In this document: one piece after another, positions 14,130 to 17,068 of the stretch
Numbering within the stretch: the first letter of the stretch is position 1
Layout: each line of letters starts with the position of its first letter
Assembly (NCBI RefSeq): GCF_009674625.1
Contig: NZ_WKJQ01000001.1
Span: forward strand, 1,612,001-1,676,000
DNA: 64,000 nt
Source of the DNA: Haloferax marinum
Lineage (GTDB): Archaea; Halobacteriota; Halobacteria; Halobacteriales; Haloferacaceae
Reading direction: 5' to 3'
Position numbers and translations under genes: made by a program
The notes under the pieces: generated by a model
The model's database searches: none
What the model was told of the DNA's origin: nothing
What the model saw: only the letters and a program-made list of their open reading frames with translations

Positions 14130-15113
14130 TTAGTTCTGCGAGAGTGCGAGCGACGCGAGGAGCGCTTCGAGTTGGACCTGTTCGTTCGCTCCTTCGGAGA
14201 TACGGTAGTCGGCCTCACCGATGCGCTCCATCAGGCGGACGGCCGTGCGCTCGTCCAAGTCGAAGTCCCAGACCGAGCGGTGGAGTTGGTCGATGATGTC
14301 GCCGCCGGCCATCCCGGTATCGACGATGAGCGTCTCTAACTTCTTGCGAGCGGTCGTGAACTCGCCGTCGATGGCCGCTCGAACCATCTCCTCGATATCC
14401 TCGGGGCGGGCAGTCGAGGTAATCATGTACACTGCCTCTTCGTCGACGACTTCGCCCGTCGTCGCGGCGGCCTGCAGAGAGTTGATGGCGCGGCGCATGT
14501 CGCCACCTGCGGCGTAGACGAGTGCGTCGAGGCCGTCTTCGGTGAGTTCGATACCCTCTGCGTCGGCGATGTCTCGCGTCTGGTCGGCGATTGCGGCGTC
14601 ACCGAGCGGCGAGAAACGGAAGACTGCACAGCGAGACTGAATCGGGTCGATAATCTTCGAGGAGTAGTTACACGAGAGGATAAAGCGCGTGTTGTCCGAG
14701 AACTGCTCCATGGTTCGGCGGAGGGCCGACTGCGCGTCGTTGGTCAGCGAGTCAGCCTCGTCTAAGAAGATGATACGGTAGTCGTGGCCGCCGAACGACG
14801 ACCGCGCGAAGTTCTTGATTCGGTCTCGAACCACGTCGATACCGCGTTGGTCCGACGCGTTGAGTTCGAGGAAGTTCCCGCGCCAGTCGTCGCCGTAGAT
14901 GGCACGTGCGATGGCCGTCGCGGAGGTGGTCTTCCCGACGCCCGCCGGTCCAGCGAACAACAGGTGCGGCAGGTCGTCGCGCTCGATGTAACTCCGCAGT
15001 CGCTCGACGATTTCTTCCTGCCCGTAGACGTCGTCGAGGGTCTGCGGTCGGTACTTCTCGATCCAGATTTCGCGACCCGTCGGGGTGTCGCCCGACTCCG
15101 CGGCCTCGCTCAT
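14130..15113 (-). CDS. rfcA: Replication factor C small subunit A
   Basis: A 327-residue AAA+ clamp-loader subunit that loads PCNA at primer junctions. Visible are the RFC box near the N-terminus ([19 protein letters not shown]), Walker [10 protein letters not shown], Walker [10 protein letters not shown], sensor 1 [11 protein letters not shown] and the SRC motif [10 protein letters not shown] with the arginine finger, then the helical collar domain. MSEAAESGD is the preferred start; MDMSEAAE two codons upstream is an alternative. It is divergent from the SAMP2-like gene. The partner PCNA (35845-36588) and a second small subunit (56859-57884) are also in the window. Confidence 0.96.
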
Positions 15114-15222
15114 ATCCATGTCACAGATGGCCGCGCACATAAAGCGTCCGAGACGGGAGCGTCGAAGCGTCCGAGACGGCCGAAGCCGACGGACTGAAAT
15201 CCACCGCCACCCACGCCCGAAC

Positions 15223-15429
15223 ATGGACGTAACCGTCGAAGTCGTCGGCGAGGAGACCCACGAGGTCACCGTCGGAGACGATGGCACCTACGCGGACCTC
15301 GTGAAGGCAGTCGACCTCAGTCCGCACGAAGTCTCCGTCCTCGTCGATGGCACCCCCGTCCCCGAAGACCAACCGGTCGAGGTAGACCGGGTGAAGGTGC
15401 TCCGTCTCATCAAGGGCGGCCGAAGCTGA
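15223..15429 (+). CDS. samp2: SAMP2-like ubiquitin-fold protein with residues beyond the diglycine
   Basis: A 68-residue beta-grasp protein very similar to Haloferax SAMP2, the archaeal ubiquitin-like modifier that also donates sulfur for tRNA wobble-uridine thiolation. The core has [34 protein letters not shown] and ends [10 protein letters not shown] at residues 65-66. Here the GG is followed by Arg-Ser before the TGA at 15427. SAMP2 as I recall it ends exactly at GG, because the UbaA E1 enzyme adenylates the terminal glycine. The codon after GG is CGA, one transition away from the stop TGA. Either processing removes RS or the protein cannot be activated. Divergent from rfcA, as in Haloferax. 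Confidence 0.88.
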
Positions 15430-15531: not shown

Positions 15532-16023
15532 GTGCCTGCCACAGCTCACTCCCTCGACTTCGAACTGCCCAACGTCGCCGCCGGCCCCGAGACGGTCTCA
15601 CCGGCGTCCCTCGACGCCGACTTCTTGCTACTGTTGCTCCAGCGCGACTACTACTGTAAGGTCTGTCGCCGACAGGTACAGTCGGTGAAACGCCGCTACG
15701 ACGAGTTCGAAGCACGAGACACGACGGTCGTCTCTGTCCTTCCCGACCCGCCGGAACGCGCCCAAAAGTGGCAACAGAGCTACGACCTTCCGTTTCCGCT
15801 CCTCGCCGACCCCGGTGCCGAAGTTGGCGACGAGTTCGACCAACCGACGCGCTTCGGTGCCCTCGGTAAACTCCACGACATGGTCGGTCGGATGCCCGAA
15901 GCAGTCCTGGTCGACCTCCGAGACGACGACCCAGACGTGGTCTACACCCACCGCGGGTCGAGTCCAGGAGACCGCCCCGAACTCGACGACCTGCTGAAGC
16001 GCATCGACAAACTCGCCGCCTGA
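15532..16023 (+). CDS. Peroxiredoxin/AhpC-TSA-like thioredoxin-fold protein
   Basis: A 163-residue protein from GTG. It shows the redoxin fold: FELPNVAAG at the start, then a helix carrying a redox CxxC (YYCKVCRRQ, Cys42 and Cys45), the strand TTVVSVLPDPPERAQKWQQ and the segment LPFPLLADPGAEVGDEF, and the cis-Pro-like MPEAVLVDL. The CxxC sits where the peroxidatic Cys of AhpC/TSA proteins is found, so a thiol-disulfide or peroxide-reducing role is likely. Substrate unknown. It lies 100 nt after the SAMP2-like gene on the same strand but has its own promoter. Confidence 0.8.
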   Translation: MPATAHSLDFELPNVAAGPETVSPASLDADFLLLLLQRDYYCKVCRRQVQSVKRRYDEFEARDTTVVSVLPDPPERAQKWQQSYDLPFPLLADPGAEVGDEFDQPTRFGALGKLHDMVGRMPEAVLVDLRDDDPDVVYTHRGSSPGDRPELDDLLKRIDKLAA

Positions 16024-16231: not shown

Positions 16232-16633
16232 ATGAGTGACGTCGCCGTCCGCAACGGAGGCCCAGACGAGTTAGTCGCAGTCATGCGCGTCCTCGACGCT
16301 GGACTCCTCGAGATGGCGGCCAGCGAGGTCCGAGACCGACTCGAAACGGGCGACTGTCTCGTCGCCGACGCGTCCGGTCGAGTGGTCGGCGTCCTCGTCC
16401 TCGACGGCGACTACGTCGAAGCAGTGGCCGTCTCACAGAGTCGGCGGGGTCGCGGCATCGGAACCACCCTCGTCGAGACGGCACTCGACCGGCAGGGACG
16501 CCTCGTCGCCGAGTTCGACGCCGGTGTCCGCCCGTTCTACGAATCACTCGGGTTCGCTATCGAACCCGCCGACGATGGACGGCCCGACGGTCGACTCCGT
16601 GGTATCCTCGACCGGAGCCATGATCCAAGTTAA
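16232..16633 (+). CDS. GNAT-family N-acetyltransferase
   Basis: A 133-residue acetyl-CoA-dependent acetyltransferase domain. The pyrophosphate-binding motif A is VEAVAVSQSRRGRGIGTTLVETAL (Q/RxxGxG/A visible as RRGRGIG), followed by the usual terminal strand with FYESLGFAI. The acceptor substrate cannot be predicted. The upstream region is the 19-bp repeat array. Confidence 0.88.
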   Translation: MSDVAVRNGGPDELVAVMRVLDAGLLEMAASEVRDRLETGDCLVADASGRVVGVLVLDGDYVEAVAVSQSRRGRGIGTTLVETALDRQGRLVAEFDAGVRPFYESLGFAIEPADDGRPDGRLRGILDRSHDPS

Positions 16634-16684: not shown

Positions 16685-17068
16685 ATGGCAAACCGAGAAC
16701 GAAGTGAGCGAATACTCACGGATTGGAATCGCGTGTTCGACGCGCTCGCGGACCCGTCACGCCGCTACGTCCTCGAATATCTTCACGACAGAAGCGACCC
16801 GGTGCCGGTGTGGGACCTGGCTATCGCACTCGCAGTTCGGACGACCGACCGAGCGCCGAACCAGATTGATATCCAGGTGGTCGAACAAGCAGAGGCCGGA
16901 ATCGTCCACGTCCACATTCCGAAACTCGAAGCGGCCAACCTCGTCGAGTCGAACGGCGGGGAACTCTCACTGACCGACCACGCACAGACGCTGCCACTGT
17001 TTACACCTGCGTATCGCGGAATCGTCCCGCCTGCGGCGAGTGAAGAGTTCGACGACTGGGAGCCTTAG
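16685..17068 (+). CDS. Winged-helix DNA-binding protein (haloarchaeal DUF7344-type)
   Basis: A 127-residue protein with a winged-helix fold: FDALADPSRRYVLEYLHDRSDPVPVWDLAIALA forms the first helices, VHVHIPKLEAANLVESN the recognition helix and wing. No ligand-binding cysteines. Such proteins are numerous in Halobacteria and presumed transcription regulators. It converges with the phosphohexomutase gene, the two stop codons overlapping by 4 nt. Family number from memory. Confidence 0.75.
   Translation: MANRERSERILTDWNRVFDALADPSRRYVLEYLHDRSDPVPVWDLAIALAVRTTDRAPNQIDIQVVEQAEAGIVHVHIPKLEAANLVESNGGELSLTDHAQTLPLFTPAYRGIVPPAASEEFDDWEP

Follow-up and report, generated by a model that had tools for sequence, protein, structure and literature searches.

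Precursor processing in eukaryotes falls mainly to deubiquitinase classes other than JAMM; in bacteria, QbsE with QbsD provides a case in which a C-terminal tail is removed after Gly-Gly. The precursors of eukaryotic ubiquitin, SUMO and Fubi are likewise described as losing their tails or fused proteins after Gly-Gly, and the same source states that homologs of the non-JAMM deubiquitinases were not found in archaea (PMC6043591). CsJAMM is reported to cleave the SAMP precursors of C. subterraneum (Caldiarchaeum), a distant archaeal lineage whose JAMM-cut precursors we liken to haloarchaeal SAMPs by description, not by sequence (PMC6043591). HvJAMM1 is reported to cut a linear SAMP1-MoaE fusion in vitro precisely after Gly; in vivo, cleavage of SAMP1-MoaE needed jamm1 and was not detected when GG had been deleted (PMC4443979). 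According to Hepowit et al. 2012, as cited in PMC8832034, the GG of SAMP1 is not needed for HvJAMM1 to cut linear fusions. DRJAMM is described as cleaving a natural Deinococcus MoaD-MoaE fusion (PMC8832034), and JAMM2 has been proposed to recycle SAMP2 in proteasomal turnover (PMC4895103).

In the Deinococcus system and in the engineered SAMP1-MoaE system, a Ubl domain is freed after Gly from a linear fusion (PMC8832034, PMC4443979). The partner there is MoaE, whereas the haloarchaeal partners described below are a redoxin, a GNAT acetyltransferase and, beside SAMP1, a GG-ending protein; unlike the MoaE fusions, haloarchaea also have very short tails. The protein from which our analysis starts, SAMP2 of Haloferax marinum, belongs to the same family as H. 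volcanii SAMP2 (HVO_0202; PDB 2l32, 2lji, 4hrs) and matches it over residues 1-66; the two PDB sequences that it matches are both SAMP2 (2l32/2lji and 4hrs). The H. volcanii protein is described with a -KGG C-terminal tail (PMC10470531), and the H. marinum protein adds two residues past GG.

The samp2 gene of Haloferax marinum

The gene lies in a window of 64,000 nucleotides, by which we mean the whole stretch of DNA analysed (Table 1). Pfam assigns the product to SAMP2 (PF21965, 107.9 bits against a cut-off of 27) with a model that spans residues 1-63 only and does not require a terminal Gly-Gly; the KGG motif closes the modifier domain (residues 64-66). The encoded protein does not stop at the Gly-Gly: codons 65-69 read GGC GGC CGA AGC TGA and the terminus is LRLIKGG-Arg-Ser-stop, which confirms the report, in a first-pass annotation of this DNA, of Arg-Ser after the diglycine. 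The suggestion that SAMP2 is encoded in a pro-form is likewise supported, in that residues follow the reactive GG as in a pro-ubiquitin-like precursor, and they do so in 79 other loci among the 236 SAMP2 loci considered below. The gene does not encode a natural Ubl fusion: the TGA at 15427 parts samp2 from the downstream protein.

Table 1. Features of the samp2 locus, in window coordinates
Feature	Coordinates	Strand	Basis or remark
Replication factor C small subunit (rfcS), divergent neighbour, tree marker	14130..15119	-	Pfam
samp2, 68 aa, encoded C-terminus KGG-Arg-Ser	15223..15429	+	Sequence, translation, Pfam
Gly-Gly, reactive end of mature SAMP2	15415..15420	+	Sequence, translation
Pro-tail codons CGA AGC (Arg-Ser)	15421..15426	+	Sequence; CGA at 15421-15423
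TGA, sole in-frame stop from samp2 through the whole downstream redoxin frame	15427..15429	+	
AhpC/TSA-type redoxin, downstream	15532..16023	+	Pfam; start codon chosen in this analysis
GNAT acetyltransferase, downstream	16232..16633	+	Pfam

The two genes downstream, for a redoxin and a GNAT protein, belong to the families that are fused to SAMP2 elsewhere, and one TGA alone stands between samp2 and the redoxin frame. A small DUF7344 protein is encoded downstream of the GNAT gene (16685-17068).

We found no second SAMP2 gene in the H. marinum genome, the two extra rows of the search being non-significant, and so have no support for the idea of a further copy taking over its work. The genome also holds SAMP1-like and SAMP3-like genes that are tailless, ending directly in GG, and JAMM1- and JAMM2-type proteases, each with an intact metal motif; the names SAMP3, JAMM1 and JAMM2 follow what we take to be the corresponding H. 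volcanii proteins. The JAMM1-type protease scores 67.9 bits with PF14464, has an intact HxH-x7-SxxD motif and matches PDB entries named JAMM1; among 30 JAMM1 loci, the metal motif was present in 29. A third ThiS-family match in the genome (L100, C1:1239284-1239388) ends in FMYCV, without GG.

Tails and fusions among haloarchaeal SAMPs

Continuation past GG proved to be common: it occurs in 80 of 236 haloarchaeal SAMP2 loci distinct in sequence, the other 156 ending in GG-stop (L002, L003 and L098-L103 had been set aside before counting as not SAMP2). Sixty-seven of the tails are of 2-25 residues and 13 run in frame into a downstream protein. By length, there are 23 loci with 2 residues, 7 with 3, 5 with 4, 4 with 5, 7 with 6, 6 with 9, 3 with 10, 6 with 11 and 3 with 16, one locus each with 17, 21 and 25, and 13 with more than 150; one-residue tails came to light in later rows (one SAMP2, L375, and eight SAMP1). 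Random loss of the stop would let translation run to the next in-frame stop, mostly more than 11 residues away, and the observed tails are shorter than this predicts: 61 of 80 have at most 11 residues, against 10 of the 156 tailless genes had their stop been read through (Fisher p 8e-29, on rows that are not phylogenetically independent). Random stop loss with read-through was ruled out on this ground.

Directly past GG the 80 tails, which are again not phylogenetically independent, begin with Ser in 32 cases, Ala in 20, Arg in 14, Thr in 6, Asn, Glu and Gly in 2 each, and Asp and Gln in 1 each. Among the SAMP2 rows read later, L377, L384 and L432 have Cys or Val at this position, and SAMP1 tails can begin with Cys, Val, His or Trp. 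Pro directly after GG was found neither in the 80 tails nor in any later tail that was read; it is the first codon past the stop in 30 of the 156 tailless genes. Tail codons are weakly coding-like (GC3 0.87, against 0.76 after the stop), a difference on which we do not rely.

In Halorubrum (genus g2), all 30 of the genomes read, among 49 that match, have a tail; in the remaining 19 there is no stop in the match, which reaches one residue past GG. In each matching Halorubrum genome we found one SAMP2 only. Four Halorubrum tails, of 11 to 25 residues, consist of short repeats, for example ATDGDA (L236, L239, L243, L245), and look as if they had grown by repeat slippage. In genus g3, three genomes (G028, G313, G316) gave no SAMP2 match, despite JAMM1 and JAMM2 being found in them; ten other g3 genomes do have SAMP2.

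The 13 long tails belong to nine Halorussus loci, one metagenome genome (L040, in which the redoxin part is apparently frameshifted), one locus of genus g18 and two Halorubrum loci; stop-free fusions were found in these 13 of 236 loci and in further loci of the wider genome reading. Ten fusions, including three of SAMP1, were scanned with Pfam as representatives. The SAMP2 frame continues into a redoxin of AhpC/TSA type in Halorussus and genera g4, g18 and g20, and into a GNAT protein in two Halorubrum and genus g13 (L225:1039-1701, L226:994-1701, L379:1492-2199). Five Halorussus SAMP2-redoxin fusions retain GG, and their identical columns number 59 of 65 in SAMP2, 11 of 23 in the linker and 89 of 162 in the redoxin. 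An AlphaFold model of a Halorussus fusion, built with five sequences, reached a mean pLDDT of 51.9 and was not used. Yeast offers a possible analogy for the fused redoxin, in that Urm1 is conjugated there to the peroxiredoxin Ahp1 (PMC7016264). Peroxiredoxins are reported beside Ubl genes in Thermococcales, and GNAT genes next to ThiS-type genes in Halobacteria (PMC2948915).

We also observed in-frame fusions of SAMP1, in four loci (L323:1501-2103, L458:214-876, L461:259-876, L464:601-1140). The partner itself ends in QKAMRAGG, giving two GG-ending units per polypeptide, and Pfam sees only the SAMP1 part (L323, L458 and L464 were scanned). By context and ending, with no profile match, the partner looks like arCOG06308, the GG-ending TBP-like haloarchaeal family that Makarova and Koonin describe beside MoaD-like genes (PMC2948915). 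A similar protein is encoded by a separate gene directly after SAMP1 in the H. marinum genome (L098).

Co-occurrence with JAMM1 and the maturation of tailed SAMPs

A search with a single query and an E-value limit of 0.001 detected JAMM1 in 287 of the 382 genomes of the class, the other 95 being negative (the 382 are taken to be handles G000-G381, and the 75 unmatched genomes are counted by that assumption). Direct reading of the SAMP2 state, which covered 237 of these genomes, showed a tail in 74 of 160 with JAMM1 and in 0 of 77 without it (Fisher 1.4e-16). The pattern had first been seen on 143 genomes with JAMM1 (65 tailed) and 49 without (0 tailed); in the genomes read after it was noticed, the counts were 9 of 17 and 0 of 28. 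When states inferred from search rows are included, the figures become 108 of 231 and 0 of 92, by a rule that agreed with read rows in 67 of 67 and 139 of 139 cases, two tailed rows being unscored. Five loci that fell below the score limit from small indels were judged by eye: G268 and G366 (without JAMM1) and G322 (with JAMM1) are tailless, G091 and G035 (both with JAMM1) tailed. One genome without JAMM1, G315, gave no SAMP2 match. JAMM1 does not require a tail, as 86 of the 160 genomes that have it show none.

SAMP1 follows the same pattern, with tails in 32 of 70 genomes with JAMM1 (the 30 best matches and 40 chosen from other genera) and in 0 of 30 without it (the best 30 of 76 matching genomes, 17 of the 30 being close SAMP1 homologs, from a search that left out 15 JAMM1-negative genomes of genus g29).

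Bearing in mind that tails occurred only with JAMM1 in the genomes checked, which suggests that they are trimmed to maturity as in ubiquitin, we hypothesize the following process. The SAMP2 of this Haloferax would be translated as a pro-protein; JAMM1, a zinc JAMM/MPN+ protease, would cut off Arg-Ser after GG; and UbaA could then adenylate the exposed glycine, for use in protein conjugation and in the thiolation of tRNA. Such processing would also serve the tails of 1-25 residues and the whole-protein SAMP1 and SAMP2 fusions of other haloarchaea. Lineages that keep JAMM1 could tolerate or use a tail; those without it presumably could not, because an unprocessed SAMP would be inactive. Maturation of pro-SAMPs by JAMM1 is the best explanation of the tails, and we think it probable; the cleavage, the identity of the enzyme in vivo and the inactivity of the uncut form are what we infer. 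In its favour we also count the published cuts made by HvJAMM1, CsJAMM and DRJAMM, the absence of Pro directly past GG, and the conservation of GG and of the SAMP2 columns in the Halorussus fusions. The earlier suggestion of a JAMM-type desampylase as the maturing peptidase thus holds as far as the candidate goes, JAMM1 being the best one by co-occurrence, and stays conditional as to the cleavage.

JAMM2 or a general carboxypeptidase might trim the tail instead, JAMM1 merely co-occurring, which we regard as unlikely. H. marinum does encode a JAMM2-type protease whose motif is intact, the gene is near-universal, and exopeptidases could trim tails of one or two residues. That near-universality also ruled out JAMM2 as the gene correlating with tails: it is found in 381 of 382 genomes, including those where tails are absent, and the exception (G362, 85% complete) has JAMM1 and a tailed SAMP2. 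Furthermore, recombinant JAMM2 from E. coli is described as not functional (PMC4895103), and a carboxypeptidase would hardly free a SAMP2 that is fused to a folded redoxin or GNAT protein.

About as unlikely is the possibility that tails and JAMM1 go together through lineage alone, with tails drifting neutrally in some families. Both traits are clustered by lineage, and the genomes that lack JAMM1 gather in few families, f3 foremost. A partial tree of rfcS (93 rows, of which 91 have both traits) needs at least 10 changes of tail state and at least 5 of JAMM1; an independent-pair test of the two traits on it was non-significant, the 4-5 supported pairs being too few. Against this stands the comparison of genera, in which tails occur in 20 of 44 with JAMM1 and 0 of 20 without it (two mixed genera are untailed) and the association persists within families (Cochran-Mantel-Haenszel test stratified by family, one-sided p = 4e-4). 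SAMP1 shows the association separately, and the tail lengths are not random. Shared ancestry as an explanation is lessened by these results, not removed.

More doubtful still is a tail that is never removed, with tailed SAMP2 either inactive or working as it is and SAMP1 and SAMP3 covering the cell's needs. Such a division of labour could draw on the tailless SAMP1-like and SAMP3-like genes of the H. marinum genome. It leaves the correlation with JAMM1 unexplained, however, and SAMP1 is tailed too in 10 of the 18 JAMM1-positive genomes with tailed SAMP2 in which it was read; H. marinum and each matching Halorubrum, moreover, yielded a single SAMP2. The SAMP2 core is under purifying selection in the tailed Haloferax and fused Halorussus sets: its pN/pS is 0.13 in the four tailed Haloferax, against 0.19 in eight of the eleven tailless Haloferax, and 0.11 in eight fused Halorussus. 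A higher value, 0.43 in 12 Halorubrum, counts against maturation by JAMM1 as the best explanation.

Precursor forms of SAMPs as such are already published for Caldiarchaeum (PMC6043591); with these and the 80 tailed haloarchaeal loci, the first-pass annotation's claim of a first pro-form SAMP does not hold. In the openly searchable full-text literature, which includes few subscription papers and no supplements, we came across no account of tails on haloarchaeal SAMPs, of SAMP2 fused to a redoxin or a GNAT protein, or of a correlation between JAMM1 and tails; what is accessible of the haloarchaeal SAMP literature treats SAMPs as GG-ending. The JAMM1-tail pattern suggests a physiological role for JAMM1. 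We lean towards the broader view that haloarchaea regularly mature pro-SAMPs in a step that depends on JAMM1, with tails and polyproteins common, and that this is a main physiological role of JAMM1 as distinct from the near-universal JAMM2. If so, SAMP2-redoxin, SAMP2-GNAT and the fusion of SAMP1 with a GG-ending protein would parallel the pro-ubiquitin and the ubiquitin fusions of eukaryotes; and if pro-SAMPs and natural fusions are made by many haloarchaea, and only with JAMM1, precursor processing, a step associated with eukaryotes, would be a working layer of the archaeal system.

Age of the tail in Haloferax

Four of 15 Haloferax genomes have a tailed SAMP2: the tail is RS in H. marinum and RD, RA and RA in its sister species (codons CGC GAC, CGC GCC and CGT GCC), so that the first residue is Arg in all four, in differing codons. 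A comparison with close relatives, as had been proposed, gives a divided answer, three sister Haloferax being tailed as well and the other eleven having GG-stop. The four tailed genomes form one clade on the rfcS tree. An earlier tree (support 96/95) had outgroups that were all tailed and is silent on the ancestral state. The clade is still recovered (98/95) in a repeat tree of 28 rows that includes every related locus L104-L118 having rfcS. Since 8 of its 13 non-Haloferax rows are tailed and at least 6 changes of tail state are needed, Haloferax may either have gained the tail or have regained it.

Because the tailed Haloferax form one clade and all begin the tail with Arg, the tail is, judged from these sequences, older than this strain, and a fresh TGA-to-CGA change in it is not a likely history; a single T-to-C stop loss peculiar to this copy, as first supposed, finds no support. 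An error of sequencing or assembly at 15421 can be dismissed as practically excluded, the sister genomes having tails of the same length in other codons.
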